Shown piece by piece: positions 32,173 through 64,000 of a stretch of DNA of 64,000 bases. How positions within the stretch are numbered: position 1 is the first letter of the stretch; each line of letters opens with the position of its first letter. The notes below the pieces were generated by a model that was not told the DNA's origin, ran no database searches, and saw only the letters and a program-made list of their open reading frames with translations. The translations under genes and the position numbers were made by a program. This DNA is from Xylanibacter ruminicola (GTDB lineage: Bacteria; Bacteroidota; Bacteroidia; Bacteroidales; Bacteroidaceae), in NCBI RefSeq assembly GCF_900107775.1, contig NZ_FNRF01000001.1, positions 434,001 through 498,000 on the forward strand. Reading direction: 5' to 3'.

Positions 32173-32180
32173 TACCTTTG
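32173..32180 (+). promoter_or_regulatory. Promoter -7 box of the mobilisation genes
   Basis: TACCTTTG, some 190 bases upstream of the first mob gene. Confidence 0.55.
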
Positions 32181-32181
32181 T

Positions 32182-32757: not shown

Positions 32758-32824
32758 TTTTCATAAAATCTGAAATTCAGAGACAGAGCCGCTTTAAATT
32801 GTCTCTTTATTATTTTCTGTCTTT

Positions 32825-32867
32825 CTGAATTACTGTATTTCATAATTTCTATTTTTCAGTAATTCTG
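32825..32867. repeat. TCAGTAATTCAG motif pair before relaxase gene
   Basis: CTGAATTACTG (32825-32835, inverted) and TCAGTAATTCTG (32856-32867, direct) face each other just upstream of the relaxase ATG at 32871. They match the motif of the AT-rich region at 31860-32115, so a shared binding protein could regulate the mob genes. Confidence 0.5.
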
Positions 32868-32870
32868 CAA

Positions 32871-34154
32871 ATGATAGCAACAATTCTACCGTCAAGTACC
32901 ACCTTCCATGCCGTCGATTACAACGAGCTGAAGGTCTCAGAGGGTGTAGCCGAACTTCTGGAGATGAAAGGTTTCGACCTCATTGACAAGAACTATACAC
33001 CCGAAGAGTTGAAACAGGCGCTCATTGATTACACTTATCAATCTAATGAGCGCATCAAGAAGCCGCAGTTTCACCTTGCGATTTCATGTAAAGGTGACGA
33101 GTACACCCATGAGCAACTGCTGGAGATAGCCCATAAATATCTCGATGAAATGGGCTATGGCGACCCAGAGCAGCCAGTTCTGATCTATGCTCACCATGAC
33201 ACCGACAATAACCACTTGCACATTGTTACCAGCCGAGTTGATCCTGCTGGCAACAAAATCAACGACCATCACGAAAGAGTCCGCTCTCAGGAAGTCATCA
33301 ACCGCATCATGGGCGAGAACCAAGAGCAGCGAGCATCTGATGCCGTGAAGAAAGCCTTGGATTACCGCTTCTCCACCATCAGCCAGTTCAAGGCCATCCT
33401 TGAATCCAGCGGCTATGAGTGCTACGAGAAGGATGACAGTCTCTGCATCAAGCGTGACGGACACGTCATCGACACCCTGCCGATGGCCACCGTCCAGTCG
33501 CACCTGCAATCCTTCGAGCCTGACGAGAAACGACGCCGACAGCTCCGCGCCATCCTGAAGAAGTACCGCGACATGACCGCCGACAAAGACGAGCTCCGCG
33601 CCCTGATGAAAGAGAAGTTCGGCATCGACCTCGTTTTCCACGGCTCCAAGGACAAGCCCTACGGCTACACCATTATCGACCACCAGACCAAGACCGTCTT
33701 CAAAGGTGGCAACGTGTGGAAGCTCAGCGAACTCCTGCAATTCCAGTCAAAAGAGGAACGCCTGCACCGCATGGACGAGTTTATCGACGCGATGCTGGAG
33801 GACAATCCTAACTTAACCACCCGCGAGCTGAACCGTATGCTTCGCCGTCAGTTCGGCACCCACATATCCAAAGGCCGCATCGCCTACGGTGACGAGTTTA
33901 TCGACCTACAGGACTATCAGGTAGAAACTCTCCGTGCTAACGACCACAAAGCCTGGCAGCAGGAGCATCCCCTTGAACAGCATCCAATTTCCCATCACCA
34001 CAGCGACGAACCACAGCCCAAACACTCAAACAATCCTCGTCTGCGAAAGCCTACTATCACCAAGGAAGGCTCCCGCGATCAGAACCGTGAATGGGAAGTT
34101 GGTCACAACACTCGCTACAATGACATCGATGATGAGAACCAGTTGAAGCGATAA
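32871..34154 (+). CDS. MobP-type relaxase (mobilisation nuclease)
   Basis: 427 residues. The relaxase domain fills about 1-200: the N-terminal AVDYNELKVSEG has the likely catalytic Tyr, FHLAISCKGDE follows, and YAHHDTDNNHLHIVTSRVD is the three-histidine metal motif (HxxTDNxHxH). The rest is helical and basic and ends in a hydrophilic tail. It should nick oriT and pilot the strand in transfer. The element lacks visible type IV secretion genes, so it would rely on a helper. Confidence 0.88.
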   Translation: MIATILPSSTTFHAVDYNELKVSEGVAELLEMKGFDLIDKNYTPEELKQALIDYTYQSNERIKKPQFHLAISCKGDEYTHEQLLEIAHKYLDEMGYGDPEQPVLIYAHHDTDNNHLHIVTSRVDPAGNKINDHHERVRSQEVINRIMGENQEQRASDAVKKALDYRFSTISQFKAILESSGYECYEKDDSLCIKRDGHVIDTLPMATVQSHLQSFEPDEKRRRQLRAILKKYRDMTADKDELRALMKEKFGIDLVFHGSKDKPYGYTIIDHQTKTVFKGGNVWKLSELLQFQSKEERLHRMDEFIDAMLEDNPNLTTRELNRMLRRQFGTHISKGRIAYGDEFIDLQDYQVETLRANDHKAWQQEHPLEQHPISHHHSDEPQPKHSNNPRLRKPTITKEGSRDQNREWEVGHNTRYNDIDDENQLKR

Positions 34155-46004: not shown

Positions 46005-46997
46005 TCATACTTTGTAAATGTCGCTCATATTCTTTATTTTTTTCCTAAACTCCTCTACCAACCACAAAGGTTCCACAACTTCGATTGCATCATTATAAGA
46101 GAATAGAAGCATTTTTAATTCTGTGTTAACTTTTAGCTTTAACTGTATAAAAGTGTGGCTCTCCGTTCCGAGTTCCTTAAGCTCAGTCTGAGTCCAATGC
46201 AATGGCTTAGTCCTGATGTAATCAATACTTTTGTTACTAACCTTTAAAACGACTTTTTCCACTGCGGTGTTTTTGTAGTTTGATACTCCCACAATGTCGT
46301 CAAAATACTCGTCAAAATCTATATCCGTATCGATATATGGTTTGCTTAAATGTTCGAGTTTTGTTATCCTGTCCAAGGGGAAATTCAGAATATCTTCCTT
46401 GTCTTCAGAATAGGCAAATACATACCATCTTCTATTATACTGGCGGAGATGATAGGGGTGGATATTGCTTGTAAACTCATTTCTGGAGAATGGTTTGTAC
46501 CGCATCTTAAGAGGGTACTTATGAGTGATGGCTTCTAATATGTCTTCTACATATTCAAGTCCCATCGCTTCACTATTATTATCAAAAGACATGAAACTGA
46601 GACCGTTTTCTGAAACGCCTTTTTCTAAACCCATTAAATAAAACCTAAGCATATCATAACGTGGATCCCCTTTAAATAAGTTCAGGTTTTCAAGTGAATG
46701 GCGAATAATCTCCATATCCTTAGAGGTTTGTTTCATAATAGAAAAATTAGTGTCTTTGTATCGCCACAAACGTTCTCTACCTCTATATAATGTGGTTTCA
46801 TAAACAGCACCGTATTTATCTTCCAATTCCTTAAGATTGTCGCGAAGCAATCGTTCACTAATATCGTCAATCTGCGGGTCTGTCCTGATCTCGTTAAGGG
46901 TACGACCTTCAGGATTGCGAAGCAACTGATCAAGGCGCATAAGTCGAGCAAATTTATCTTGCCCTTCATGCATTGATGACTTTTTATATTTTCCCAT
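46005..46997 (-). CDS. WYL-domain transcriptional regulator
   Basis: 330 residues. An N-terminal winged helix (RLMRLDQLLRNPEGRTLNEI) is followed by the WYL domain (KMRYKPFS and HPYHLRQYNRRWYVFAYSED) and the C-terminal WCX extension. WYL proteins sense nucleic-acid ligands and control defence operons in many phage-resistance islands. It precedes the 293-aa operon and lies between that and the large helicase operon, so it could control either. ATG 46997 chosen over the TTG at 47012. Confidence 0.87.
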   Translation of the reverse strand: MGKYKKSSMHEGQDKFARLMRLDQLLRNPEGRTLNEIRTDPQIDDISERLLRDNLKELEDKYGAVYETTLYRGRERLWRYKDTNFSIMKQTSKDMEIIRHSLENLNLFKGDPRYDMLRFYLMGLEKGVSENGLSFMSFDNNSEAMGLEYVEDILEAITHKYPLKMRYKPFSRNEFTSNIHPYHLRQYNRRWYVFAYSEDKEDILNFPLDRITKLEHLSKPYIDTDIDFDEYFDDIVGVSNYKNTAVEKVVLKVSNKSIDYIRTKPLHWTQTELKELGTESHTFIQLKLKVNTELKMLLFSYNDAIEVVEPLWLVEEFRKKIKNMSDIYKV

Positions 46998-47045
46998 ATT
47001 ATATTCTTTCAATCAACATCCGTTACTCTTCTTTCCAATACTTTT

Positions 47046-48532: not shown

Positions 48533-48727
48533 TTATCCCATTTCGTCTGGGCTGTCGTAAAACTCCATCGCTGCAAGAGCTTCGTCATCATTGCTGAGTT
48601 CCGAATCCTCCTCGAAGATTTCTTCCACTTCGTCAGCGACTTCTCTGTTCTCCAGTAGCTCTATCTCCACCTTCTGTTTTTCAGGTGTAAACGAGCCTAT
48701 CTTACCTGCTTTTATTCTATGTCTCAT
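48533..48727 (-). CDS. Small acidic protein (64 aa)
   Basis: Basic N-terminus (MRHRIKAGKIGSF) and a strongly acidic Glu/Asp-rich remainder (DEVEEIFEEDSELSNDDEAL). No family recognised. It lies 28 bases after the 178-aa gene at the end of the helicase operon. Confidence 0.6.
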   Translation of the reverse strand: MRHRIKAGKIGSFTPEKQKVEIELLENREVADEVEEIFEEDSELSNDDEALAAMEFYDSPDEMG

Positions 48728-48755
48728 AATTCCTATCTTCTGTTTAATTCTTTAA

Positions 48756-49292
48756 TTATGCTGCAAACAATAAAGCTGCGATTGCACCTAACCCCTCTGC
48801 CGCAATTTTACCAAGCCTGCGGTCATCTGTCAGTTTTTGTTCAACAATATAGTCACGAAGTTTCTGCCTCCAGACTTTATTTTGCAGCAATATCCAAAGA
48901 TCATCATCGAAAAAAGCCAATACAACTTTTTCTTTCAGCCAGAGTCTTGATGGAGTTACACCTTCCTGTGGTTTCCCCGAACATTGCAAATGCCAAAATC
49001 CATCTGACTGCAGATGCCAGAAAGGATTGGAGACGTCTGTAGGCTTGTCAAATTGAGAGTCTTTCATGTACAGCTCCATCAATGTAGAATATCGCCTCTC
49101 CAGCCAATCATCCAATTTGATGTAATTACTCGGGAATACATCTGCATCTATTCCATCAATGATACTTAGCAACAATACTGGTTTGGCCACGATAATCTCT
49201 CCGCGTATCTTAGCTTGTCGGATGCTCATAATACGTTTTGTATAGTGAGCATAACATTGTTCGTAGTTATAAAATTGTAATATCCTATTCAT
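48756..49292 (-). CDS. Restriction-endonuclease-like N-terminal domain protein, no HNH
   Basis: 178 residues. The block VAKPVLLLSIIDGIDADVFP and the following NPFWHLQSDGFWHLQ match the N-terminal 'KPLLLLAILD...PFyHLrsdgFW' region found in HNH-type restriction endonucleases, but no HNH nuclease part follows. It may be a standalone DNA- or partner-binding subunit. It follows the 1725-aa helicase by 52 bases in the same direction. Confidence 0.65.
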   Translation of the reverse strand: MNRILQFYNYEQCYAHYTKRIMSIRQAKIRGEIIVAKPVLLLSIIDGIDADVFPSNYIKLDDWLERRYSTLMELYMKDSQFDKPTDVSNPFWHLQSDGFWHLQCSGKPQEGVTPSRLWLKEKVVLAFFDDDLWILLQNKVWRQKLRDYIVEQKLTDDRRLGKIAAEGLGAIAALLFAA

Positions 49293-49344
49293 ATTTAATA
49301 ATCTTCATTGCCATGACCAATACGATAAGCATCCATTTCATACT

Positions 49345-52300
49345 TTATCCATTCAAATTAGACAAACCGAATATGGAGATAGGCTTGTGGTATACACCAT
49401 TTAGTCTCCCTATTAGCTTATTAACATACTTTTCGGACCATAGCGGATGTACTAAGATAAATCTCTCTCCATAAGGATCATTTCCTGTGATGGTTCCTTC
49501 TGTCACCTTAGTGGTATAGTTATTCCTAATGAGCATGTTATTAATCGTTCCGAACACGAAATCATGCCAATATGTAACCGAGAAATCTATTTTCGCCCTG
49601 CTATCCTTAGCCAATCTTGCGATGTCAAGACCAAGTCGCCAGTCAAGCAGCTGATGAACACTTTGGTTGGAATAATCTCTTATGCAATCATAGCAAGATG
49701 ACGTACACCCTTCCTCATGACTCTTTGAGGTGAGTTGTTCATAAACCTCACCTCCTTCAACTAGTGGAGATACAATCGCTTGCTCAGGAACATCATGATA
49801 TTTCCTACCACTGAGATAGTTGCAATAGCCTGCTCCGTTTTCCAAACTTTCTACGAGAAATACTTCAGCTCGCTTTGTTGCAGGCACAATATAGAAACCT
49901 ACATTGAGTTCTGACGAATCAATATCCAGATAGGATGATATAGCCTTACGCACCAAATATCCCCATGACAAGAAGGCTGCGCGAACCGCATAACTATTCT
50001 GGTTTTCATTAAAGACGGGTGACAGACATATATCCTCGCGAACTTTAGCAATTGATAAAGTAAGTACACCCGTTGTTTTGGATGAATAAAATGCATACTT
50101 CGATTCAAAGTCTAATTGCATTGAACGCCCAATTTCTTCAGGGTAGGCATCTCTTGATACATAAATGCCCCTCTGATTCCGGCCAAGGTTATACAGGTCA
50201 CCATTATTATCGTTTACCAAATGAACAAGTCCTTGCGAAGGAATTGTATTATTCCTGATAGTCATATTAGCAACTTGCGGACATTCAGAGAGAGACTGCT
50301 CACAGTCAAGCTTAATATCACTATTGGGTGAATACCAGTCGAAACTACCATTGAAGTCATCGGGTTTGACACTGTAATCCACACAGAATCCTAATGGCGA
50401 GCAGATCTTTACACTCTCCATCTCATTACCACAAACGGGACAATTACCGTCTTCGTCGCTAATGGTTGAATAACCACAGTTCCTGCATCTGTGGAGTGGA
50501 TGACGATATTTGTTTAGCGAATTATGCTTCACTTGAACAATGTGAGTGGCTTTATTATACTCGTAGTCCGCAACCCCTACAGCTCTGAACACCTTTTTGT
50601 CTTTAACGATTTCATGACCAGGAGCAAAAGAATTAAGAGCCATGTCTATATCGCGAGATACAACATCTTCAGCCGGAAGCTTCTTGGGTTCACTCAGATA
50701 CAGATTTCTCGTTCTCGTGGGGAAGCCAAACATCGGCAGCAAACCTGCATTTGCCAATCGTTCACTCAGATAATCCTGCGTATAATCATCGCTTGATGCA
50801 ATATCCGATATTCGGTCAATTAGCTGAATATAAATATAATCGAAGATGTCTTTCTTTAGCTTTTCGGAAATCTCTGTACCCTTCGTTACAACAGAAATAA
50901 TCCGTTTAACTTCTGGCTTATTCTTTGCCAACCAGTCTTCAACAATCTGTTTGTTATGTTCCCATGCATCTATAAGCCCAAAGTTACCGTGAACACTATC
51001 GCTACCGCCTGCATTCTTCCTTAATGCGGCATATAGTATTTCCTTGAAAATGATTCTCTCAGCTATCTCGTGCGTCCTAACTTCCAGATATGGATCTTTA
51101 GGCGTGTCAGATACCATTCGATTGTATTCCATGAAATTAGTCTGATCGTGACTCAATGACCTTGCCACCGTAAGTGCAATAGACAATGGATTCCCTCTTC
51201 GTCCAGCACGACCAACACGCTGCTGATAATTGAATCGTTGTGGCGGGACATTACCCATCATAACGGCAGACAAAGAGCCAATATCAACACCTGCTTCCAT
51301 TGTTGTTGTCACACTTAAAAGGTCTATTCCATCCACGATTGGATTTTCCGTTTGAAGGAAGATTTCCTGGAATAGTCGTTGTCTCTTCCTTGAATCCTCC
51401 TTGGAAGTCTGTCCAGTCATTTCTTCACAATGTAAGCGATATACATTCTCCGTGGATTTTAACAGAGTGAGATAGTAATCATCAGGATTATTAATCTCAT
51501 CTTCCGTTAGAATTTGTGGTTCTCCCAATTTGTGCAGGCAGTTAATACAGACACCATTAGCATGATGCATGTGAGTTGTCTTACACCGTGGGCACACCCA
51601 ATATTTCGAACCAGCTGTTGCCTTTACAAATGAAAGCCCGTCACCTGTTAATAGAGTGACAGTTCTGTCGATGATTTCTCTACTTCGCAGAATCTGATGG
51701 AGTTTATCAATTATCCCATCAATAAAGATCTTATCACTCCGATGATAGACTTCTTTGATTAGGCTGCGCACAGCTCTTGGGAAACTGTCTGTAGCTGGAT
51801 ATTTTGATGGGAATCCCTTGATCCTTTTCTTCTCACCTAAAATTCTTATAACAGAACAGACAAGTTCCCTCATTATCGGGTCGTCAATATCACTTGTTGG
51901 CGCAAGATAGCCAAGTTTCAGTTCCTCAAAAGAACCGCTCTTATTAGAGAAAATACTGCCAAGTTGTTCTATCTTATTGGAGAAATGTATATCATCGTTA
52001 AAGTTCCTCTTACTATCACTGGGGTCTGGTTTCATCTTCAGCGTGTTGAAGTCATAAAGATCACTCCAGATACCGGCAGCAGGATTTTCAGAGAAAGACG
52101 GTTTTGGACCAGCGGGATTCATTCCCAATGACAGAATTTTTTCGAACACGTCATCCTCGATATTGCCTATTCTCAGACCGCTGGATGACTGCAAGAAAGC
52201 ATTTAACTTTTCTATCTGGTCTTCGGTGGCCCACTGCTTCTGTTCCCAATCTATAATTTGAGCATAGTCTCTGTATTTCTCGTCCTGCGACAGTTTCATG

Positions 52301-54522
52301 AATTTAGCAATGTCTTCCCTTGATGGAGGTGTTGTCTCTCTGAATTTCTTTAGGAAGGTAATCGCTTCATCACTTCCATTCAGGGCATTTAATATGGCCC
52401 ATCGTAACACATCACGGAAATGATCAAGTTCAATACCTGCTGACAATTTTGCGGCAGACTGTCTGCTATCGGAGAACAACACCACCTTCGTATTCGTCTC
52501 TTTGGCATTCTTCATCGTTCTAATAAGAGAGTCTGCAAGTATTTGGTTGACTTTTTGGAGTCCTGTACTGTGATGACGGATTGGGGTAAAACTGTTGCTG
52601 TCTTTAACCTTATAGGCCACTTCGCATTGTGGACATTTAGATGGGAATTTAGTTTCCGAATCAGACATCTGCTCATGTAGCGAATACTCACCATCCATGT
52701 CGTTCCACACCTCTCCTGTTGCCGGATTGTAGTTCACACGTTTCCAACCATCCTTTGATTCCGCCTTGCCTTTCCATAGCACGCAATAGCTTGCGAAGTC
52801 ATTAGTTATGGGCTTTTCTACGCTTAGGAAAGATTTTCCATTGCTGTTTATCTTATAACCGCCTAAAAACACGTCACCGCAGTTCTCGCAGACAAGTACC
52901 TCCAGCACTTTCATACCGCATGAACAAATATTTCTTGGGCGCTTATAGAAAGTGCCTATGTTTCTGCCGTCAAATTGATAATCATCATGAACGCATGTAC
53001 AGTTTGGATCGGAGCATGCCCATAATCCACTTACATTTCGGAAGAAGAAATGTGCTCTTATCGGAGCAACCGCTGCATTGTTCCATACGCTCTTGCATAT
53101 TACTTTGATTACAGCAGACACAACAGGAAGCCTATCACTTACTTCTATCCCCAAAGCCTCGCCTATTTTCTCAACATCCTTTGGTATAATGCCTTTGGGG
53201 GTACTAAGTGCAAATCTCAGCCAGTCTAACAACTTGTACTTCTCTGTAATCTCATAGAAATCATTGCATTCAAGGACACAAAGAAGTGTTCCGTCGTCTT
53301 CTCCAGATTCATCTCCGTTGCCGTATCTAACCAATTCTGCAATGGGCAACGCCACATCTGGCCTTCTGACAGAAGGCTGTGGAGGATTGGACAGTACACA
53401 AAATTTCTCTTTAAAACTTTCCTTTTCGATACCAAAGAACTCCGAAAGGAACTCTATTGATTGCATATTTTCTTCAAGAGAAGCACTCGTTGCCAGAAAC
53501 TGAACTTGGGGCGAGTCTGGAGACAGCCCCAGTCTATCCAATAAGACCCTTAGAAGATAAGCGACTTCCGTTCCTGCCGTTCCACGATAGGTATGCAATT
53601 CATCTATAACAAGATGAAAAACATTTGTTCTATCCTCTCGAAGCCATTTCTTAGTATCTGCGAAGATGTCCGCTTCGTTCTCACGCATCAGCATTACATT
53701 AAGCATGCTGTAATTGGTGATGAGAATGTCAGGTGCATTGTCCTGCATGGAAAATCTATCCCACATCTCTGCCGAATCTTGTTCCATGCACGGGATATGA
53801 TATAGTAAGTCTCCATCATGGCTATTCTTAGCAGCTATCCAATCTTTGGTTAATAGGCGTTTCTCCTCAGCAAGTCTGCTTTTGCTCTTTTCTTTCGTAC
53901 CGCTCACAGGAGTGGCACCTGTATATCTGCCAAAGTAAAAACGATGTCCGTTCCTAAACTTATCAAGCCAATCTAATGCGCCAGTTCCATCCGTTTTCCT
54001 GCTGTTTAGCGCTTTTCTCAAACGAATCATTTGGTCTTCCGCAAGAGCATTTAGTGGATACAATATCATTGCTCGCATGGCTCTTGGTCTTGACTCTTCC
54101 CACTTCTTTGACTCCTTTACTAGATCAGCGATTATGGGCAACAAGAAGCATTCTGTCTTACCTGAACCTGTGCCTGTTGTTACAACAATATGCTTTCTGT
54201 TTATAAAAGCCTCTTTCAAGGCAGAATACTGATGATCATACAATTTCCTTTCTTGGTGGCCAGAGTTAGTAAACAATCCGGTATTGACAAAATCATTAAG
54301 CTCCTGAGAAACATTCTCTGAAGTGCAAAAGTCTTTCAGAGATGCTTTCTCGTGATACTTTGTTACCAATTCTATGATGGGAGGCTGGCAAATAGTACCT
54401 GTTTCTTCCATCAGTTTATCGCGTTCTTGACCATACTCCTTCCTGAAGAATGGCAAACCACTACTAATGTATTTTAAGTATGCGTGGCGTATATCGGAGA
54501 ATATCTTTATTGGATCATTCAT
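49345..54522 (-). CDS. Large DEAD/DEAH helicase with DUF1998 domain (1725 aa)
   Basis: An SF2 helicase: GTGSGKT at 117-123, DELH at 307-310, a FLATSASL motif III, then MEAGVDIGSLSAVM and QQRVGRAGRRGNPLS. Zinc-binding cysteine pairs are seen in VLVCENCGDVF, KYWVCPRCKTTH and CRNCGYSTI. The end carries the DUF1998 block NGAGYCNYLSG and the four-cysteine CTSSCYDCIRDYSNQSVHQL. This layout resembles DruE of Druantia and the DrmA/DrmB proteins of DISARM. It is coupled to the upstream unknown gene by an 8-base overlap and lies in the same operon as a methyltransferase and a second helicase, so a nucleic-acid-clearing defence role is likely. Confidence 0.85.
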   Translation of the reverse strand: MNDPIKIFSDIRHAYLKYISSGLPFFRKEYGQERDKLMEETGTICQPPIIELVTKYHEKASLKDFCTSENVSQELNDFVNTGLFTNSGHQERKLYDHQYSALKEAFINRKHIVVTTGTGSGKTECFLLPIIADLVKESKKWEESRPRAMRAMILYPLNALAEDQMIRLRKALNSRKTDGTGALDWLDKFRNGHRFYFGRYTGATPVSGTKEKSKSRLAEEKRLLTKDWIAAKNSHDGDLLYHIPCMEQDSAEMWDRFSMQDNAPDILITNYSMLNVMLMRENEADIFADTKKWLREDRTNVFHLVIDELHTYRGTAGTEVAYLLRVLLDRLGLSPDSPQVQFLATSASLEENMQSIEFLSEFFGIEKESFKEKFCVLSNPPQPSVRRPDVALPIAELVRYGNGDESGEDDGTLLCVLECNDFYEITEKYKLLDWLRFALSTPKGIIPKDVEKIGEALGIEVSDRLPVVSAVIKVICKSVWNNAAVAPIRAHFFFRNVSGLWACSDPNCTCVHDDYQFDGRNIGTFYKRPRNICSCGMKVLEVLVCENCGDVFLGGYKINSNGKSFLSVEKPITNDFASYCVLWKGKAESKDGWKRVNYNPATGEVWNDMDGEYSLHEQMSDSETKFPSKCPQCEVAYKVKDSNSFTPIRHHSTGLQKVNQILADSLIRTMKNAKETNTKVVLFSDSRQSAAKLSAGIELDHFRDVLRWAILNALNGSDEAITFLKKFRETTPPSREDIAKFMKLSQDEKYRDYAQIIDWEQKQWATEDQIEKLNAFLQSSSGLRIGNIEDDVFEKILSLGMNPAGPKPSFSENPAAGIWSDLYDFNTLKMKPDPSDSKRNFNDDIHFSNKIEQLGSIFSNKSGSFEELKLGYLAPTSDIDDPIMRELVCSVIRILGEKKRIKGFPSKYPATDSFPRAVRSLIKEVYHRSDKIFIDGIIDKLHQILRSREIIDRTVTLLTGDGLSFVKATAGSKYWVCPRCKTTHMHHANGVCINCLHKLGEPQILTEDEINNPDDYYLTLLKSTENVYRLHCEEMTGQTSKEDSRKRQRLFQEIFLQTENPIVDGIDLLSVTTTMEAGVDIGSLSAVMMGNVPPQRFNYQQRVGRAGRRGNPLSIALTVARSLSHDQTNFMEYNRMVSDTPKDPYLEVRTHEIAERIIFKEILYAALRKNAGGSDSVHGNFGLIDAWEHNKQIVEDWLAKNKPEVKRIISVVTKGTEISEKLKKDIFDYIYIQLIDRISDIASSDDYTQDYLSERLANAGLLPMFGFPTRTRNLYLSEPKKLPAEDVVSRDIDMALNSFAPGHEIVKDKKVFRAVGVADYEYNKATHIVQVKHNSLNKYRHPLHRCRNCGYSTISDEDGNCPVCGNEMESVKICSPLGFCVDYSVKPDDFNGSFDWYSPNSDIKLDCEQSLSECPQVANMTIRNNTIPSQGLVHLVNDNNGDLYNLGRNQRGIYVSRDAYPEEIGRSMQLDFESKYAFYSSKTTGVLTLSIAKVREDICLSPVFNENQNSYAVRAAFLSWGYLVRKAISSYLDIDSSELNVGFYIVPATKRAEVFLVESLENGAGYCNYLSGRKYHDVPEQAIVSPLVEGGEVYEQLTSKSHEEGCTSSCYDCIRDYSNQSVHQLLDWRLGLDIARLAKDSRAKIDFSVTYWHDFVFGTINNMLIRNNYTTKVTEGTITGNDPYGERFILVHPLWSEKYVNKLIGRLNGVYHKPISIFGLSNLNG

Positions 54523-55336
54523 ATCGTATGGAATTACAAAGTATTCGGTTTAATTCTTTAACCACAGAAGAGGACACACCTTTATATATATAGGTATTGT
54601 CTTCTTTTTCCGGCAGGGTTTTCCTTTTCATCGTTTCTAACTGAAGAACCCTATATAGGGTAAAAGGAATTGCGAATGCAGGGGAAACAAGTTTCTTTTG
54701 CTCACTATAGTAAGTGCCATTACCTTCCCCACTGATAGCTCTGCCATAGCAATATGCAATGGCAAATGCATCAGGGTTAATTGTTCTGTCAGGCAATTCT
54801 CTCATATATGCTTTGGCTGGATAAGAGAAGAATCGCTTAAGTCCTTCCTTTTCCAATTCTGCGACACCAATTCTATTCTTCCAATCATAATACTTCAATT
54901 CTTTCTCGTCCTGTATAGATTTAGAGAAATTATCTACAACCTTATCGACAGAAGGATAATTCTTAAGTATAGCTTTGGAATCAACCTCAATTTCTTTTAT
55001 GTCGTATTCATTTTTTAGACCCTCAGTGATATAAATCCCGACAGATACCTCTTTGAATTTTTCCGAAACGGGGATGTTGTTAATATGGTAATAATGGGAT
55101 TCGAACTTCAATATGAGCGGTTCTGTCAAGGCATAGTAGCCCTTTCCTGTATGGTCTGCAACACCACTAAACACCAATGGCCAGAAGATTTCCCAGATAG
55201 GATTGCTCGATGTGAGCTGGTGACTTTCTACCAGATAGTCACAACTTGTCTTGATGGAATCCAGACTTCTCCTTCCGAGTTTGCTCAACCAAACATACAG
55301 AAGCTTTTGCATTTCATATCGTTCCTTATTGCTCAT
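54515..55336 (-). CDS. Unknown protein (273 aa), defence operon
   Basis: Mostly helical and beta-mixed; N-terminal LYVWLSKLGRRSLDSIKTSC then NPIWEIFWPLVFSGVADHTG resembles a small winged-helix-type module. No catalytic motif is visible. The ATG at 55336 is used because the longer start at 55342 is a TTG. It overlaps the stop of the 627-aa gene by 11 bases and the helicase start by 8 bases, so the three are tightly coupled. Function is unknown. Confidence 0.65.
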   Translation of the reverse strand: MSNKERYEMQKLLYVWLSKLGRRSLDSIKTSCDYLVESHQLTSSNPIWEIFWPLVFSGVADHTGKGYYALTEPLILKFESHYYHINNIPVSEKFKEVSVGIYITEGLKNEYDIKEIEVDSKAILKNYPSVDKVVDNFSKSIQDEKELKYYDWKNRIGVAELEKEGLKRFFSYPAKAYMRELPDRTINPDAFAIAYCYGRAISGEGNGTYYSEQKKLVSPAFAIPFTLYRVLQLETMKRKTLPEKEDNTYIYKGVSSSVVKELNRILCNSIRYE

Positions 55337-57209
55337 CTTCAAGATAGCTCTTATAATAATTTGGTATGTTTTTAAGAGACTTACCAGCTTCTTCCAAGAC
55401 CTTCGGAGTTAAATAACCTATATTCGTATTCTCTGGAATCTCGATTCTTCCATAGAAATCTTTTTCTATACTTCTATCAATGCAGCCCATATGTTTTATG
55501 CAGTTTTCGGCCAATGGCATAACATCGTCATTGGCAAGAGTGCATATGATACGCAAATTTGCAGGGAACTTTTTGTTTACTCCTGGGAACATTGATACGA
55601 TGTCCCGCTGAATATCAATCAGCGGCATCATATAGTTTGGCAGATAGGTTAGATTTATATTCTGCAAGAATAAGAAATGCATAATATCCTCATTTCTATA
55701 GCATTCTTCAACCATTTGTCCCAATCCGTTTTGCCACAAATCAGTGAATGACTTCCAAGTAGCACTTACGTATTCTAATGCGTATCGGCATTTCATGCTG
55801 GCAATAGCAATCACTTTAGCAATAGCCACATCGGGTACCAACATAATCTTATACAGAGCAATCTGATTTCCTATGTCGGTTGCCATCGAATAGGTAAGCC
55901 GATTCGTCTTTAATGCGTTTTCAAGTGACTTGATGAAAGCTTGATATACAGGAATTGCATCACTCGCAATGTCTAGATCTTCTATAGTTACATTCTCTGC
56001 TTGCAAAATTGGTGCAGACGAATGACTTCCAACCCCAAGGACTTCTTTTACCACAGAAAAATCCTCGATAATTCTCTCTTTCCTTTCCTCTAGACGGTTG
56101 ATACTTTCTTCGAATGTTGCAAAATCCTTCCGCCTGCCTGCAATAGATTCTTCAAGAAGTTCTGCTTCCACTTTCTTTTCTTGAAGTAACCTCTCTTGTT
56201 CTGCAAGCTTAGATTGATAAGTCTCGTCAATATCCCCTATCAATTTTTTTAGCCTTTGCTCTTCTTCCTCTGCATGTTCCTTAGCAAGGAGAATTTCCAT
56301 ATCATAACGTTCACGTATCTCCTGAAGCTCTTTCGCTTTTTCTTTTTCGACTTCTTCAAGATACGCTTTACGATGTACAGATATTGATTGTTCGATAGAA
56401 TCCTTAAGCCAAGGTAACGTCTTTAACTCGTTCAGTTCTTCAAAAGAAATTGTTAATGCTCTGGTGATGTGAGTAAGCCTCTTGATTCTACTACTAATGA
56501 CAAGACCATCCAGTCCCTTTGAACTTGCAAAGGCTTCTCTCAGCAGTGGCTCCACGTTGCGGAATGTCTTTTCTTCGAAGATCTGATTCCAGTTTTTCTT
56601 CAAGACATTCTTCATAAACCATTCCTGTAGCTGTTCATCAGTAGTGATGTCAATTTTACCGTCCTCACCACCTTTAGCGGTATCTGTTACAAATAATCTA
56701 CCATTAACAGTTAGTGTGTCCAACGAACTTTCTTTCCAGTATGAAATCAGCCTATCTTGGCTATCCGCTTTAATCAGATAAATCGATCCACCAGAAGAAA
56801 CAAAAGTGTCGTGTTCAACATTTAGTAGATTGTTCTCTTCAAGCAAAGTATAGTTATATTGTCCGTTAGCAGTGAAATCTCCCTTAAGTTTTTTTACTCT
56901 GGCACCGAATTCATAAACGCCTCCAGATTTGTTCCAGATATAGGCATAATACCCTTCGCCAACCTTTTCGTTGGGTATGACGCTTATACACACCAGCGTT
57001 CCCTTTGTCTCATAATATCTCTCAGCAAAGTTGTGGGCAAAAACCTTTCCATATGGAGGAAATAGTTTTAGACTCTCACTTTCTTTTAATGGAGTAAAAT
57101 TATTACGCCAATCAGTGTATCCAACAACCTCGATTTTTGCATTGGGATTCCCAGCAAAGAAGTCTACATATCCGACCACTTTATACTCGTTATATTCAAA
57201 TTCTGTCAT
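55326..57209 (-). CDS. Coiled-coil protein with degenerate McrB-like AAA fold (627 aa)
   Basis: Residues 1-265 form a mixed domain, 275-390 a long coiled coil rich in Glu and Lys. After it the pattern of McrB-type GTPase/AAA proteins appears without catalytic residues. VSATWKSFTDLW (about 481-492) stands where the ATPase has its WxxxxDLLG segment. HFLFLQNINLTYLPNYMMPL (about 511-530) replaces the LDEMNLARVEYYF Walker B, with Gln and Asn for Asp and Glu, and PANLRIICTLANDD (about 549-562) fits the sensor-1 strand. No Walker A was found. It is likely a structural, target-sensing subunit. Coupled to both neighbours by overlaps of 4 and 11 bases. Confidence 0.6.
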   Translation of the reverse strand: MTEFEYNEYKVVGYVDFFAGNPNAKIEVVGYTDWRNNFTPLKESESLKLFPPYGKVFAHNFAERYYETKGTLVCISVIPNEKVGEGYYAYIWNKSGGVYEFGARVKKLKGDFTANGQYNYTLLEENNLLNVEHDTFVSSGGSIYLIKADSQDRLISYWKESSLDTLTVNGRLFVTDTAKGGEDGKIDITTDEQLQEWFMKNVLKKNWNQIFEEKTFRNVEPLLREAFASSKGLDGLVISSRIKRLTHITRALTISFEELNELKTLPWLKDSIEQSISVHRKAYLEEVEKEKAKELQEIRERYDMEILLAKEHAEEEEQRLKKLIGDIDETYQSKLAEQERLLQEKKVEAELLEESIAGRRKDFATFEESINRLEERKERIIEDFSVVKEVLGVGSHSSAPILQAENVTIEDLDIASDAIPVYQAFIKSLENALKTNRLTYSMATDIGNQIALYKIMLVPDVAIAKVIAIASMKCRYALEYVSATWKSFTDLWQNGLGQMVEECYRNEDIMHFLFLQNINLTYLPNYMMPLIDIQRDIVSMFPGVNKKFPANLRIICTLANDDVMPLAENCIKHMGCIDRSIEKDFYGRIEIPENTNIGYLTPKVLEEAGKSLKNIPNYYKSYLEDEQ

Positions 57210-58780
57210 AGTTCTGATTGTTTTATGATTCGTAAAGTAATATTTGCTTCTCCTTCATAGTGTTGTCCGAACGTCAGTTGATTTGACCATCGCCTTAACG
57301 TTGGAACATCTTCATTTATATTGTTTTGCTGAATTGGTGGATAATCCAAACCGACAATGCCCTGCTCTTCCTGGGTGCTTTCCCAAGTTGCCCCCTGCTT
57401 GTCGAAGTGCCACTGGAAATAGGATTGCATCCAGTCGCAGGTATTGGCATTAGCCATCACTAAATCAAATTCGAGTTTCTTATAATCTTGAATTTTGATA
57501 TAGTGGTGTCCTTCTGGGAGATGGTTCAGAGAAATATCGCCCTTACATTCCTCTTCACTATACGCCTTTCCGTCAATCCAAATTTTGGTTGGCCATTCTA
57601 ATCTGAGCGTAGGAGCAGCTCCCTTCAGATATGTTTGTCGGCCAATTTTCAAACCGCCAAACAACTCATAGAAGCGCTTATCAGCAAAGAACCCTCGTGT
57701 ATAGGTATCGTATTTAATCGTGAATATCTCAATATACTTGTTGTGGTATATCATATTGGGACGCAGGTAGTAGCGAATTGTTGATTCTTTCTGTGGGAAA
57801 CAAATGACCAACCCCTCTGTTTCTTTACCTTCCAAGTTCCAAGTCTCCTGCCAATAATTATCATAGACATCGTCTCGTTTAAAGAGGATAATACCATTAC
57901 GTTTAAAATGGTAACTCTTTGCTAATATGTCATATGAGGTTGAAGCCAAATCAAATTTCTTCTCTAATGAAAGAGTTGCAGTACGCATCTCCAAATAGCG
58001 AAAATCATCAGGAAGATACATGAAAAGTTGATTAGAACCGTTTTTTACAACATTTTTAGGTTTACCATTCCTTTCTTTATATTCTCCATTCCACCTGAGA
58101 AAGTAATTATAGACTTGATCATAATAATCTTCTTGTCTGACAGAATTATCTATGACGACCCTTCCATGATGAGTTTGAGCATTTAGAACAATATCTGTAT
58201 TTGATATGATTTTCCTAAAATCACGCTTTTGCAAATCATCAGTAGGTGAAAGCCCTTTTTCTACGAAACAAGCGGCTATGTATTTCAGATCTTCCTCTGA
58301 GAAGACCCTTCTTGCTTGATTTATTGGGTATTGAACATTTTTCCATGGCCCAGACTTCATCTCACATTTGGTAATTTGGAAATAGTGTTGGTCGCACCAT
58401 TTGTAAAGCGAATGCCAAAGTCCGTCTTGGTACATTCCTAACCATTCGTCCATCTGTGTGATGTCCCAATCCAGAATGCGCGATAAGCGGTATCGGTAGT
58501 TCCTGGCAGATATATTATCGCTTTCAGCCATTTTAGATGCGGCAAATAGTTGAATGGCCAACATACCTTTTACGAACAACGTGTCTCGTCTTTGGTCATA
58601 TAAGCAATTCCCCACAGCATCCATTAGTGTTTCTTCTGTCAAAGAGTGTAACTTGCAGAACTCGTCAACAAAAGTCTGGTCAACAACAAAGGCAACATAG
58701 GTCCCCGCATTTTCCTCTGGGAAAATACGTTCATCTACAAATTTGCAGAACTCCCTAAATATACTACCCAAGCTACTCAT
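57206..58780 (-). CDS. Unknown protein (524 aa), defence operon
   Basis: No signal peptide or membrane segment. The N-terminal ~200 residues are helical; the centre is a mixed region (YNYFLRWNGEYKERNGKPKN, then FKRNGIILFKRDDVYDNYW) and the C-terminal part is beta-rich with LSLNHLPEGHHYIKIQD-like strands. I recognise no family. It overlaps the next gene by four bases and follows the Res-like gene by 52 bases, so it belongs to the operon. Confidence 0.6.
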   Translation of the reverse strand: MSSLGSIFREFCKFVDERIFPEENAGTYVAFVVDQTFVDEFCKLHSLTEETLMDAVGNCLYDQRRDTLFVKGMLAIQLFAASKMAESDNISARNYRYRLSRILDWDITQMDEWLGMYQDGLWHSLYKWCDQHYFQITKCEMKSGPWKNVQYPINQARRVFSEEDLKYIAACFVEKGLSPTDDLQKRDFRKIISNTDIVLNAQTHHGRVVIDNSVRQEDYYDQVYNYFLRWNGEYKERNGKPKNVVKNGSNQLFMYLPDDFRYLEMRTATLSLEKKFDLASTSYDILAKSYHFKRNGIILFKRDDVYDNYWQETWNLEGKETEGLVICFPQKESTIRYYLRPNMIYHNKYIEIFTIKYDTYTRGFFADKRFYELFGGLKIGRQTYLKGAAPTLRLEWPTKIWIDGKAYSEEECKGDISLNHLPEGHHYIKIQDYKKLEFDLVMANANTCDWMQSYFQWHFDKQGATWESTQEEQGIVGLDYPPIQQNNINEDVPTLRRWSNQLTFGQHYEGEANITLRIIKQSEL

Positions 58781-58832
58781 TTGCCAGATCTTGATTTTTA
58801 TCTACACATAATCCAGGTTCGTATGATCCAAT

Positions 58833-61661
58833 TCATTCGTACCCCCCTTCAGCGTTAAAGACCTTATCGAAGTCAGACTCCTCTACACATTTCATCACCT
58901 TCTCTTGAACGGACAGTCTAGTGAATTCCAGTCTCAGCATCTTCTCGCCTGACGAAGTTTTCATCTTACGTAGCATCTGTACCCTATCTACATTTGGACA
59001 TGCTTGTACATACTTTACTAAACCCTTTGCTTTAGCGAGATTGTCTTTCTTGTCATCGCGGTGGGGTTCCAGCAAGCCATATTCATAATTCCCGTATTCG
59101 TTCTTTCGGATAATCAGAAAATCAGGGAACATACGATGTGTCTCACCACCATAGTCGTATGGGATGCATAATGCCCAGGGCTTGCGGTCCTGGTTGCGGA
59201 GCCAGCAAACAAAATAGGGATTCTTTCGCTCTTCTTCCAGCGTGATAGGTTCCCATCCTTTTAGATTGAATGTTGCTGTTCCATCAGCATTAACAAACAG
59301 GTGGTCAGTACAGGTTTCACCCTCATTGTCCAAATCCACATTGATGGTCTCTGGCAGATGGAACAGGTGTTTTGAAATGGTACTTCCCATTGTTACCAGA
59401 CTATTGTATCGCTGACGGTCTTTTTCAGGAATGTTCTTGGATTTTGGTCGATAAAGGTCTGCCAACCTATTGAATTCTTCTTTGGCATAATCCATTCGGA
59501 TGTCAGTTTGATGGCTATCAGCCACATACAGGATGACATCATACATACTAGCATAATCATCGGTTTCATAATTGTCTGCATATCGTTGGCCTACGCCTTC
59601 GCCACAGAGTAGAATTTCAGCATTGAAGTATTGCCGCTGCAAACCAGCATCAGTCCTGGAGAAAAGATCCGGTCCTTGCTGCACATCATAACTGCTTCCG
59701 CTTTTATATAGTTCAACACTAATGGTATTCAGCTGAAATTCCAGAGCCTTGTCCACAAGAGCTTCGTACTCACCCTTAGCTTTCAGTTCTGAAATAAAGT
59801 TGTGGATCAGCCTTGCAATATCATCTTTCACCTTATCAACGGCAGCAAATTTCTCGTCCATACCTGTCATGTCACCCAGACGAGCCATTTCAAAAAGCGA
59901 ACGGACATAATTTTTATTGACTGCAACCGTTTTTACCTCATAAGTCAGTATCTCAGCGTTATTGATTGCATCCTTAACAGCCTCGTATGGGTCTTGGCTC
60001 TCTTGTGAAGGATTTTCTCCATTCTCTACAAACAATTCCATTTCAGGTTGCTTATCATTTGGCTCAGAAGACTGATGGCCACCATGGGATGATTGATGCT
60101 CACCATCGTCTCTTACTACAGTGGCAGGCTGCTGTGGAATGGTTGTTTGAGGTTTAGTTGATTCACTTCCAGGAGTGTTCTGAACTTGATTCACCGGCTG
60201 ATGAACAGTGGAACCAGAAGAAGTTGACTGTGTACTTCCTGCCTGATTGCTTGGTTGTACATGGGCAACGGGGCGTTTTGTTGTCATGACAACAGAGGTT
60301 TTATTTCCTCCTCTGATAGCTTCCACATCTGTTGGCAATGCTCCGCCTTCCTCTTCTGTCAGTTTCTTAACAACTTCCTCTACTGTATTCTCATCAAAAT
60401 GCGGCAGATACAAGTGTACATAGTTCAAAGATTCATCTACCTCAATACGCATTCTTTGTGGTGTACGAATCATACGGCCCAGCAACTGTGCTATATAGGT
60501 AGCATCTTTGGCCACTCTATATGACATCATCGCTTCTGCACGAGGACAGTCCCAGCCAGTAGAAAGAGCTTCTTTGAAAAGAACTACCTTAATCTTTCGA
60601 TCATCATTGATAGACGAGGGAGAACAATACGGCACGTCAATACCATTAATCGGTATTGTACCAGCATCACCAAAGGCATGAACCACTTCACCTTCTACAA
60701 AATTCTCGCCAGTACGTCTTTCTATTTCTCGTATGCACTCATCCAAGTCAGTAGCAGAAATCTTGTTGCCAACTGCTGGCTCTACCTGAACTACAAAAAT
60801 GGGACAGACATTCTGGTAGTGTTGTTTCTCGGTGTAGTTATACCAATGCAAACATTTGTCTTTCCATTCGTCAGCTGCAGCCTGAAGCACGGCGATGTTC
60901 TTGTTAATAACGCTCTCCTCAGGGAAGTGAATTTCGATTTTGTCCTTTAGAAGTCCTGAATCACGCACTTCCTTGGGAGTCACCACCACTTTGCTCAGTG
61001 TTGAGAGACTGGCACCTGCAAGACTATTGAAACGTTCTGGAGTTGCACTCATACCAATTATAAACGGCAGGGCTTGTAACTTCTGATTCTCAGCTTTATC
61101 TTCAAATCCTTTCACGAATTTCTGCATGATGGTGGTTTGATTAGTCTTTGCCCCACGATGTGCTTCATCAATAATTAGCACTAGATGCTTGCCATATTCC
61201 TCAATAGTATTTTCTATGACTTCCCATATCGTCCAGTCTCTTCCATCACCAGTATTAGTCATCTTACTGGTTTTGTTGAGTTTCTGGGTGTTTAGGAAAT
61301 ATATCTTCCCCAGTTCAAGCTTATCACCTCGGAAACTATCGTCAAGAGTAACCAATTGATTAAGCACCAATCTATCACAGAACTTAATCATTTTCTGCCT
61401 ACTTTGTTCATTAAGTTCAGGAGCATCACTCAACCAAATAAAGATGGTTTCAGGCATTGGTGCCATCATGCCCTCCTCATCCCCACACATCATCGCTTCA
61501 ATGAAACTGGCCATCATGATGGTTTTGCCAGCACCGGTAGGAGCGGTAAAAGAGATAATCTGCTTTTGGCCAAAGTGTTGCCAGTTCATCTGAGCCATAG
61601 CTGCTACTTTGCGCAGCTCTAACATTCTCTGTTTCTGAAAAGGTTTTAATGCTATATTCAT
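58833..61661 (-). CDS. Res-like SF2 helicase-nuclease (942 aa)
   Basis: APTGAGKT at 40-47, IIDEAHRG near 163-170 (DEAH 165-168), MSATPE at 204-209, and QLLGRMIRTPQR for motif VI. A 100-residue low-complexity Ser/Thr/Gln linker lies at about 470-575 (for example NQAGSTQSTSSGSTVHQPVN). The C-terminal part carries a nuclease-like pattern: MFPDFLII (Asp) and YGLLEPHRDDKKDNLAKAKG, where the usual ExK is EPH. It resembles restriction subunits of type III enzymes. It lies 15 bases after the methyltransferase gene, giving a Mod-Res order. Confidence 0.85.
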   Translation of the reverse strand: MNIALKPFQKQRMLELRKVAAMAQMNWQHFGQKQIISFTAPTGAGKTIMMASFIEAMMCGDEEGMMAPMPETIFIWLSDAPELNEQSRQKMIKFCDRLVLNQLVTLDDSFRGDKLELGKIYFLNTQKLNKTSKMTNTGDGRDWTIWEVIENTIEEYGKHLVLIIDEAHRGAKTNQTTIMQKFVKGFEDKAENQKLQALPFIIGMSATPERFNSLAGASLSTLSKVVVTPKEVRDSGLLKDKIEIHFPEESVINKNIAVLQAAADEWKDKCLHWYNYTEKQHYQNVCPIFVVQVEPAVGNKISATDLDECIREIERRTGENFVEGEVVHAFGDAGTIPINGIDVPYCSPSSINDDRKIKVVLFKEALSTGWDCPRAEAMMSYRVAKDATYIAQLLGRMIRTPQRMRIEVDESLNYVHLYLPHFDENTVEEVVKKLTEEEGGALPTDVEAIRGGNKTSVVMTTKRPVAHVQPSNQAGSTQSTSSGSTVHQPVNQVQNTPGSESTKPQTTIPQQPATVVRDDGEHQSSHGGHQSSEPNDKQPEMELFVENGENPSQESQDPYEAVKDAINNAEILTYEVKTVAVNKNYVRSLFEMARLGDMTGMDEKFAAVDKVKDDIARLIHNFISELKAKGEYEALVDKALEFQLNTISVELYKSGSSYDVQQGPDLFSRTDAGLQRQYFNAEILLCGEGVGQRYADNYETDDYASMYDVILYVADSHQTDIRMDYAKEEFNRLADLYRPKSKNIPEKDRQRYNSLVTMGSTISKHLFHLPETINVDLDNEGETCTDHLFVNADGTATFNLKGWEPITLEEERKNPYFVCWLRNQDRKPWALCIPYDYGGETHRMFPDFLIIRKNEYGNYEYGLLEPHRDDKKDNLAKAKGLVKYVQACPNVDRVQMLRKMKTSSGEKMLRLEFTRLSVQEKVMKCVEESDFDKVFNAEGGYE

Positions 61662-61676
61662 ATTGCTCCGTTCTTC

Positions 61677-63992
61677 TTATTTTGCTGCGTAGTTAATTCT
61701 GAAATTCTCCAAATAGTCTCTATACAATTGATAAGTCCTGAATTCTCTCAACTCATCAATCATTGTGAGATAAGCGTTCTGGCTGTCTGTAATGATATAG
61801 ACAACCTCTATTTCGGGATGTTTATCCAATTCATTACGGAACTGACGGAAACATGACTCTTTTTTCAAGATGGCGATGTGGTTTTGGGGCCAAATTACAA
61901 ATTCTCCCTCGACATTGGTCGGACATTCGCCTTTAGCTCCAGCTTTCATCCATAAGATAGGCAGAAGTTCCTGTAGCTGACGTCCGCGAGCCACAGACCT
62001 TTTATCCAAGAAGCCTAACTTGAAGAATGTAGCGTTTGCTTTAAAGCCGTCTTTCATGGACATTGATACAGGAACGGTTTCTTCTATTTTGCCCATCAGT
62101 TGACTTATTTCTTCTTTGACCTGACGGTATGTGGCGTCCTTATCAGTCACTATATAGAAGTTGGTAATATGGTCATTGCCTTCCAGAGCCTCTAGATAAT
62201 CGTCGATTTTGGTGACATCAAAGAGAATGGAGGCATTATAGCTGTCATCTTCTGACACAAGGAATAGCACATCAGCAGTCATTGTAGGCAGTTTTACTTC
62301 TTTCTGCTTGTTGATGAGAGATACCAAGGACTTCTTGTGCTTCTGGTTTGCTCCCGCTGGGAAGAAATTGATTTGTGTAAATTTGCGGTCCAACTCCTTG
62401 GTTTCTGTCAGCGAGGTGAAGTATTCACCCTCTATAGGCTTGCCGTTTATGTCAATACCAAGAATACTGCACTGTGTGCGAGGCCAGTTCACATAACGGG
62501 CAATGCCCCACTTTTCCCATTCTTCATCGCCGGGTTTAATTCCCTGAGGAATCAGCTCCTTTTCTTTTGGTTCACCAATCTCATTGTTTGTCACCATAAT
62601 GCAGCGTCGATGACCTCCATCTTCCTTATTTAACAAGTTTACGGCATGAAGTGTAGTACCACTACCTGCAAAGAAATCCAGTATCAGAGCATTTGGCTTG
62701 TTTGCAATGAAGAAACGAAGTGCATCATGAACTGCATAGAGGGACTTGGGGAAAGAGAACCTACTTCCGATTATACTATTTAGCAATCTAGAACCATATT
62801 GCGTCGAATCATGACTTGAAATTCTCCATATATCTCCAGGAACAGCCTTAAATAAGCCACTATGGTTGTCACTCCCTTCTGTTATGATTTCATTATTGGG
62901 CCCTCTCCCAATTTCTCTGAACTGTCCAGATAAAATTTTGTTATATTCACCATCTTTCAATATATAAATAGTATATCCCTTTTTATAGTTCCCTCCTATT
63001 TTCACACGACCTTGTTTTTGTCTCTCACGGAAAGTATCTGATGTCCATTGCCACCTACCTTCGCTACCATCTTTTCTGATAGGTAATAACGGATAGAGGC
63101 CTTCTATTTCTTCTGCTTTCGAGATACCTGGAGGTAATGGTTCGCCTACAAGTTTAATTATATTATTTCGGTCTATATAAACAGGATAAAAGCCTCCTGG
63201 TGAATCACTTCTTGATGCACCTAATCCTGACCTCTTAAGTAAATCCCATCTAACATATCCAGTATGTGTTCTTCCTTTGCTTGAAACCCATTCTCTTCCT
63301 AATTCCAATTGATGTGGCGTGCAATCTCCTAATAATACAAAAAAGATGAATTCACCACTTCGTCCAAAGCCTCCAACCCGAGCAACGTTAGCCGGGTTTA
63401 TCATCGTGCTTATCATCTGTATTCTTGCCTCTGGAAACAATTGCTCGAGCAGACATCCAAGATGATGATACTCCAATTCGTCTATAGTAACAATCAACAC
63501 AGAGTCCTTCGGATTCAAAAGTTTCTTGGCAATCTTCAATCTTGCTTCCATCATTGAAAGCCATTTGCTATGACGATAAGAGTCCGTACCATCCACATAG
63601 TCACAATTGTATTTCCAATCGTGTGAATCTGGCTTATTATAAGGAGGATCAATATAAATACAATCCACTTGTCCAGCATATAGATATACTAGCAACTGCA
63701 ATGCATGATAGTTATCGGCTTCAATGAGCGTGTGCCAGAGTTCACTATCTGGTGCATTCTTCACACTATCCATTGGTTTTAGATAAGGATAGATGACATC
63801 ACCACGCTGTGCAATAGCAACTAAATCTGCCAAAGGAAGAACCACCTCATTCATCGTGGATAGCTGGACACAAGTGGCTTCTGTATCAGTAAGGCTCTGC
63901 ACCTCATACACATCGCTTACCTTTCCGTTACGTATCACCACATTAGTTCCCCTCCTTATTGGCACCTCTGGTGTCAACAGGTTATCAGGCAT
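61677..63992 (-). CDS. Beta-class adenine-N6 DNA methyltransferase (Mod-like, 771 aa)
   Basis: The catalytic motif IDPPYN (115-118 for DPPY) comes before the cofactor motif ILDFFAGSGTTLHAV (FAGSG at 441-445), the beta-class order. Between them is a 300-residue insertion with short loops likely to read the target. The C-terminal ~250 residues could form further specificity or dimerisation parts. It should methylate adenine in an unknown site and protect host DNA from the downstream Res-like protein. The start is given as the ATG at 63992, but the frame is still open at the window edge and could begin further upstream. Confidence 0.85.
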   Translation of the reverse strand: MPDNLLTPEVPIRRGTNVVIRNGKVSDVYEVQSLTDTEATCVQLSTMNEVVLPLADLVAIAQRGDVIYPYLKPMDSVKNAPDSELWHTLIEADNYHALQLLVYLYAGQVDCIYIDPPYNKPDSHDWKYNCDYVDGTDSYRHSKWLSMMEARLKIAKKLLNPKDSVLIVTIDELEYHHLGCLLEQLFPEARIQMISTMINPANVARVGGFGRSGEFIFFVLLGDCTPHQLELGREWVSSKGRTHTGYVRWDLLKRSGLGASRSDSPGGFYPVYIDRNNIIKLVGEPLPPGISKAEEIEGLYPLLPIRKDGSEGRWQWTSDTFRERQKQGRVKIGGNYKKGYTIYILKDGEYNKILSGQFREIGRGPNNEIITEGSDNHSGLFKAVPGDIWRISSHDSTQYGSRLLNSIIGSRFSFPKSLYAVHDALRFFIANKPNALILDFFAGSGTTLHAVNLLNKEDGGHRRCIMVTNNEIGEPKEKELIPQGIKPGDEEWEKWGIARYVNWPRTQCSILGIDINGKPIEGEYFTSLTETKELDRKFTQINFFPAGANQKHKKSLVSLINKQKEVKLPTMTADVLFLVSEDDSYNASILFDVTKIDDYLEALEGNDHITNFYIVTDKDATYRQVKEEISQLMGKIEETVPVSMSMKDGFKANATFFKLGFLDKRSVARGRQLQELLPILWMKAGAKGECPTNVEGEFVIWPQNHIAILKKESCFRQFRNELDKHPEIEVVYIITDSQNAYLTMIDELREFRTYQLYRDYLENFRINYAAK

Positions 63993-64000
63993 GTGGTGTT

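Follow-up and report, generated by a model that had tools for sequence, protein, structure and literature searches.

A DruF-DruG-DruL-DruE operon core in Xylanibacter ruminicola, a probable Druantia variant located behind a type III Mod-Res pair

A stretch of 64,000 nucleotides from the genome of Xylanibacter ruminicola (G000:C10:434001-498000; 3.77 Mb, 99.98% complete), here called the window, harbors a defense operon with eight open reading frames (ORFs) on the minus strand between positions 48533 and 63992. The four middle genes probably constitute a Druantia-type DruF-DruG-DruL-DruE system; the Mod-Res pair in front of them is likely a type III restriction-modification system in its own right. 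The DruFGLE set, whose subunits span two recognized types, is regarded here as a new variant of Druantia and not as a wholly new kind of defense. An initial annotation had described these genes as an undescribed system of Mod, Res, a DUF1998 helicase and three unknown subunits. The gene families are indeed those of defense systems, and Pfam and PADLOC uphold the domains assigned to the helicase, to DUF1998/MZB and to Mod/Res. However, the helicase is a DruE by PADLOC, the three remaining subunits are homologues of DruF, DruG and DruL by hhalign, and the core is better placed as a Druantia variant.

Subunits and recurrence of the core

The largest of the four proteins, a helicase of 1725 amino acids (aa), scores 1378 bits against the PADLOC model of DruE4, 1338 against DruE2, 675 against DruE1 and 57 against DrmA of DISARM, and contains DEAD, Helicase_C and MZB domains in a single chain (Pfam). 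Its three partners, of 524, 627 and 275 aa (the last is 273 aa from an alternative start), gave nothing above the cut-off in Pfam, and the 524-aa protein has a weak PADLOC match to DruF4 (7e-6). Relatives of the three were gathered at E<=0.001 (121, 48 and 121, with 120, 48 and 120 listed), and 18 plasmid regions around DruE relatives served as reference loci, with ten proteins from five of them scored by PADLOC. Against reference sets that are small (8 short DruF, 8 DruL, 5 long DruF and 5 DruG) and hold some members picked by position, hhalign matched the 524-aa protein to short DruF (99.3%, 425 columns), the 627-aa protein to DruG (98.0%, 496 columns) and the 275-aa protein to DruL (94.6%, E 7e-8, 232 columns). 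Among the 18 other pairs, 15 stayed below 1%. The exceptions were the 524-aa protein with long DruF (14%), DruL with long DruF (35%) and short with long DruF (96%), so that the 524-aa protein is linked to the long type II DruF through the short form and only faintly by direct comparison. Because short DruF and DruL both cross-match long DruF, and because a 1013-aa protein of locus L020 likewise matches DruF models (DruF2) and, at its end, DruL4 in PADLOC, the long type II-like DruF would fit a composite of DruF plus DruL.

Reversed targets gave 0.2, 1.9 and 0.1% for DruF, DruG and DruL, respectively, and omission of L017, the most distant row, left 98.8, 97.0 and 88.0%. In phmmer, one member of each reference set recovers all the others; the weakest matches are at 0.0028 (DruL) and 2.9e-11 (DruG). 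When the 627-aa protein is divided, its N-terminal part alone reaches 88% against DruG, its C-terminal part 55% and its coiled coil alone 0.7%; the DruG match is not caused by the coiled coil. The predicted layout of this protein consists of an N-terminal mixed region, a long helix at residues 269-388 and a C-terminal McrB-like AAA+ fold that lacks Walker A, in keeping with its earlier description as a coiled-coil pseudo-AAA protein, and DruG is predicted to adopt a pseudo-McrB fold. The inactivated McrB-like GTPase with coiled coil that marks type IV CoCoNuTs would, on this structural model, also be found here. Bell et al. 2025, for whom that class covers Druantia I and II, likewise place beside a YprA-family helicase an McrB/CnuB-like protein that is predicted to be inactivated and has a long coiled coil; a DruF-DruG-DruL-DruE set and an accompanying Mod-Res pair, as in the present locus, are not described in the parts of the preprint consulted.

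All 30 aligned DruE rows have Walker A (GTGSGKT), DExH and motif VI (QRxGRAG), and motif III is variable. A quick tree of these rows, rooted at the midpoint and with long branches and uneven composition flagged, unites the nine intact rows of the core set in one group with a Shimodaira-Hasegawa-like approximate likelihood ratio of 100. Five F-G-E rows form another group, F-L-E and fused F-L rows are scattered, and the window DruE is distant from two type III rows. The solved helicase 9wae_A scores 1675 bits against the type II DruE of L023 and 419 bits against the window DruE. In an alignment of nine rows of the set, read by eye, the C-terminal end past the DUF1998 cysteines is short, HPLW or HPFW occupies the expected D/ExK site, and no D/ExK nuclease motif was seen in the tail. 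This agrees with Bell et al., who report an inactivated Vsr domain for types I and II.

The same four genes recur in the same order in 11 other loci, and therefore the layout of the core is not chance, bearing out the earlier view of the middle genes as a single conserved unit. Ten loci, presumably all Bacteroidales or families and genera belonging to that order, came from a species-genome collection by short patterns of the 524-aa family. The order is kept in all nine of these that extend past the first gene, and the overlap between the DruL and DruE genes is exactly 8 bases in eight of the nine. L009, L011 and L012 have a fragmented or cut DruE, and L014 stops within the first gene. Two further complete sets came from genome searches: L017, where two of 393 genomes in the order matched, one of them the window's own, and L053, where five of 395 genomes in the class matched, the cores being the own one and L053. 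When profiles were made with L017 left out, the three partner proteins of that locus were recovered at 3.2e-66, 2.8e-48 and 2.1e-33; for L053 the corresponding values were 9.7e-40, 5.3e-43 and 8.2e-17.

As set out in PMC8565338, PADLOC type II consists of DruE and DruF with requisite DruM and DruG and was seen in Proteobacteria only, and type IV consists of DruE, DruF and DruL without DruM and DruG. The core departs from each in one defining feature, having no DruM and having DruG. It shares with type II homologues of DruF, DruG and DruE, as well as a DruE end that has no visible nuclease motif, but here no DruM was found, DruL is a separate gene, DruE falls in its own tree group, and DruF has 524 aa, as opposed to 822-927 aa in the five F-G-E loci compared. 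With type IV it has in common homologues of DruF, DruL and DruE and a DruL directly before DruE; in the window and the 11 other loci, however, a DruG gene stands between DruF and DruL. DruM is a methyltransferase. The sole methyltransferase of the operon is the type III Mod, and none of its 22 matches in PADLOC at E<=0.001 is to DruM.

It is very unlikely that the core is a standard PADLOC Druantia of type II or IV that seems different as the models are short of Bacteroidota sequences. DruE does score similarly on DruE4 and DruE2, and the resemblance of the long type II-like DruF to a DruF-DruL fusion (L020) means that type II may hold all four parts, but neither type combines DruG with the lack of DruM, and the core DruE is grouped apart from the five F-G-E rows. 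No description of the F-G-L-E set was found in the Druantia literature searched, where supplementary tables could hold one. The earlier statement that no named system has the full set is thus right in that no single PADLOC-defined type has these genes, and too strong in that the core is a variant of Druantia.

Other systems with a related helicase were also compared. DISARM also has a DUF1998 helicase module with a methyltransferase nearby, but DrmB/DUF1998 should be apart from the DrmA helicase, whereas here both regions are in one 1725-aa protein that scores 57 bits on DrmA against 1378 on DruE, and no DrmB or DrmC is among the matches listed (25 of the helicase's 39). The Druantia type I set is DruA to DruD, for which the 524-, 627- and 275-aa proteins gave no PADLOC match at E 0.1 in a single-sequence model scan. 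For type III, PADLOC gave no DruH match to the three partners, and DruE is far from the two type III rows.

Upstream modules and their relation to the core

The whole Mod scores 501 bits against PADLOC MTase_III, and its part within the window 482; it also matches Pfam N6_N4_Mtase, and its DPPY motif precedes FxGxGTT, the order of the beta class. Res matches Pfam ResIII (1.5e-16) and PADLOC REase_III (1.9e-13). The two genes lie in tandem with Mod first, which by sequence appears to be the layout of type III restriction-modification systems such as EcoP15I, although such a system accounts for the first two genes only and was not seen beside the core elsewhere. The C-terminus of Res reads PDFLII...LLEPH in place of PD...ExK, as if it held a variant nuclease motif.

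Relatives of Mod, Res, YhcG and a 178-aa protein encoded behind DruE were sought in the 13 other loci that have the core or its first gene (L005-L014, L017, L053 and L057); less than 2 kb upstream is visible in L009 and L011, and only the start of DruF in L014 and L057. The four subunits are homologues of Druantia subunits and fixed in order, and relatives of Mod or Res are absent from the other loci seen (0 of 13). At E<=1e-30, Res is found in two of 393 genomes in the order, the window's own and that of L038, and in L038 Mod and Res are present without the core. On plasmids, 19 of the 25 listed Res records (of 40) are also among the 25 listed Mod records, and none of these 25 Res records is among the 40 listed DruE records; a further 15 Res, 675 Mod and 119 DruE records lie beyond those listed. 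Pfam scans of 36 neighbor proteins from 12 loci, which is not every neighbor, returned one DNA methyltransferase, of the D12 class (2.5e-6), on the opposite strand in L011, past the cut DruE and adjoining thymidylate synthase. Ordinary neighbors include a sulfate permease (L005), a C10 peptidase (L007) and an OmpA-family protein (L008). In L011 (5808-8540), DruE stops at 364 aa, and behind it on the opposite strand are the genes for thymidylate synthase and the D12 methyltransferase, as though the operon had been cut by a mobile element or an assembly join.

The Mod-Res pair thus likely forms a type III restriction-modification system of its own within the shared operon. The initial annotation had joined Mod-Res and the DUF1998 block in one system, but separate occurrence is the rule as far as surveyed; of the six large genes whose joint recurrence in order it had raised, the four core genes recur and Mod-Res does not accompany them. 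Stacked defense operons have a precedent, because a figure legend in PMC11090510 shows Mod/Res and YprA/DUF1998 genes among the neighbors of Type II CoCoNuTs.

That Mod-Res and DruFGLE form one integrated system, with Mod marking host DNA in place of DruM and Res or DruE attacking unmarked DNA, is quite unlikely. The genes share a strand, the gaps leading from YhcG to Mod, Res and DruF are just 13, 15 and 52 bases with no listed terminator within the last, and type II Druantia requires DruM (named in PMC8565338). Set against these are the lack of Mod/Res relatives in the 13 loci, the single, opposite-strand DNA methyltransferase among the 36 neighbors, the occurrence of Mod and Res alone in L038, and gene overlaps that begin only at DruF.

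At the head of the operon are an XRE-type regulator and YhcG. YhcG matches PADLOC PDC-S02 and is the sole YhcG_C match in its own genome, and a YhcG stands directly ahead of DruF in three of the 13 loci (L010, L011 and L014; Pfam). The XRE regulator shares 80-82% identity with those immediately before DruF in L006 and L007; in L010 and L011, YhcG is preceded by weaker relatives (46 and 57%), so that the head occurs with the core in four of 12 loci. Of 393 genomes in the order, 66 contain the XRE family, the window's own among them. Five relatives were examined, and none of them (0 of 5) is accompanied by the core; a Mod-like gene lies downstream in L091, L092 and L093, with a Res-like one also in L092, and L089 has YhcG. 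L089 and L090 look like type I systems by appearance, no search having been made. The XRE family is a possible common controller of defense operons. The head occurs both with the core and with restriction-modification genes and so ties the two in use, whichever came first.

It is unlikely that the locus is a chance pile-up in a defense island, with the XRE-YhcG head and Mod-Res as one passenger, the core as another, and no functional link. The wide spread of the XRE family and the downstream Mod-like genes of three of the five examined relatives, none with the core, suit this explanation; the recurrence of the head with the core in L006, L007, L010 and L011 does not.

In L017 (10948-18958), the core comes after an ABC-three-component (ABC-3C) module that includes MC3 and DUF3732 proteins and starts with an LmuA-like gene, an apparent further swap of modules before DruF. 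An alternative that we consider unlikely is that DruFGLE forms a Druantia type of its own with four subunits, in which a slot between the XRE-type regulator and DruF takes exchangeable effector modules: nothing, YhcG, an ABC-three-component module, or YhcG with Mod-Res. The Mod mark would then double as a self-tag here, and the core would be without such a tag elsewhere.

Proposed mode of action

On the preferred reading, a Druantia-type core beside a separate Mod-Res pair, the DruFGLE system likely protects its host by means of a helicase complex that attacks invading DNA. We infer every step beyond DruE being a helicase of the YprA/DUF1998 family. DruF, DruG, DruL and DruE may act as a single complex, because their genes overlap and keep a fixed order. 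DruF, DruG and DruL would be sensing and assembly subunits, with DruG a non-hydrolyzing McrB-like scaffold. DruE would load on exposed single-stranded stretches or on replication intermediates of the invading DNA that contain single-stranded DNA (ssDNA), translocate on phage DNA and unwind or dismantle it. The action on ssDNA-containing intermediates is proposed from published work on type III DruE; in PMC13192584, DruE of Druantia III loads on 3'-tailed, ssDNA-containing intermediates, and its DNA processing is suggested to be the common core of Druantia, with the partners setting its switching-on. Since the DruE tail is without a D/ExK motif, DNA cutting may be borrowed from YhcG where present, from Res here, and otherwise from host nucleases. 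No phage-protection assay for the F-G-L-E variant was found in the Druantia literature searched.

Single-family models give for this operon a Druantia helicase, a type III restriction-modification pair, a single very weak match to DruF and, for two proteins, nothing. With the present assignment these become testable subunits, PADLOC types II and IV are joined by an operon that holds all four parts, and the range of DruG-bearing Druantia is extended to Bacteroidota. The set is compact, with no methyltransferase beside the core in the loci seen, and suits study of the role of the predicted pseudo-McrB subunit, in a defense operon whose upstream modules vary between genomes.

Genes of the locus and their surroundings

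The ORF list agrees with the initial annotation on the eight minus-strand genes and on their overlaps of 4 bases (524/627), 11 bases (627/273) and 8 bases (273/1725). The annotated Mod start at 63992 is wrong, for the flanking genome read past the window edge gives a full ORF at L003:5678-8113 (Table 1). The operon order is XRE, YhcG, Mod, Res, 524, 627, 273, 1725, 178 and 64.

Table 1. Genes of the operon, with positions in the window unless another locus is given.
Feature	Position	Strand	Length and evidence
XRE-type regulator	L003:9326-9559 (window-equivalent 65325-65558, outside window)		77 aa
YhcG/DUF1016 nuclease	L003:8127-9308 (outside window)		393 aa; Pfam YhcG_C 8.3e-35
Mod, type III DNA methyltransferase	61677..64000 (ORF to window-equivalent 64112)	-	811 aa, cut by window edge
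Res, type III restriction helicase-nuclease	58833..61661	-	942 aa; Pfam ResIII, PADLOC REase_III
DruF homologue	57206..58780	-	524 aa; PADLOC DruF4 and hhalign
DruG homologue	55326..57209	-	627 aa; hhalign; predicted McrB-like fold
DruL homologue	54515..55336	-	273 aa from ATG 55336; 275 aa from TTG 55342; hhalign
DruE homologue	49345..54522	-	1725 aa; YprA/DUF1998-family SF2 helicase; PADLOC, MZB, motifs, tree
Sulfur-binding-domain-like protein	48756..49292	-	178 aa; NCBIfam, PDB 8h0l match
Acidic small protein	48533..48727	-	64 aa; ORF only; may not belong to operon

Spacing alone suggests co-transcription from one promoter ahead of the XRE regulator. The sequence TATCTTTG, which we take to be of a Bacteroidota promoter type, begins 26 bases ahead of that gene. 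The motif TAnnTTTG is found at about 0.5 per kb and strand, with a single occurrence on the operon strand over window-equivalents 56001-65700.

The 178-aa protein matches NCBIfam NF045808 (1.1e-6) and SBDHga1 in PDB 8h0l (2.9e-7 over residues 20-146), with no Pfam match and no recognized HNH nuclease domain, and relatives occur in none of the 13 other loci. From these matches it is possibly an accessory that reads modified DNA. The 64-aa protein has no family match in Pfam, PADLOC and NCBIfam scans.

The defense island has Rep3 initiator and relaxase genes on one flank (window 29500-34154) and TraG, TraM and coupling-protein genes on the other (L003:14973-L004:8118), which together suggest that it sits in a conjugative element. 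In a viral contig, L057 (6655-10789) has a DruF-like gene beside genes that by size and order look portal-, protease- and capsid-like, the stretch covering only the start of the core. Within the window, a protein encoded at 44990-45871 matches the PADLOC candidate defense family PDC-M09A (2e-66), and a WYL-domain regulator is found near it at 46005-47012.
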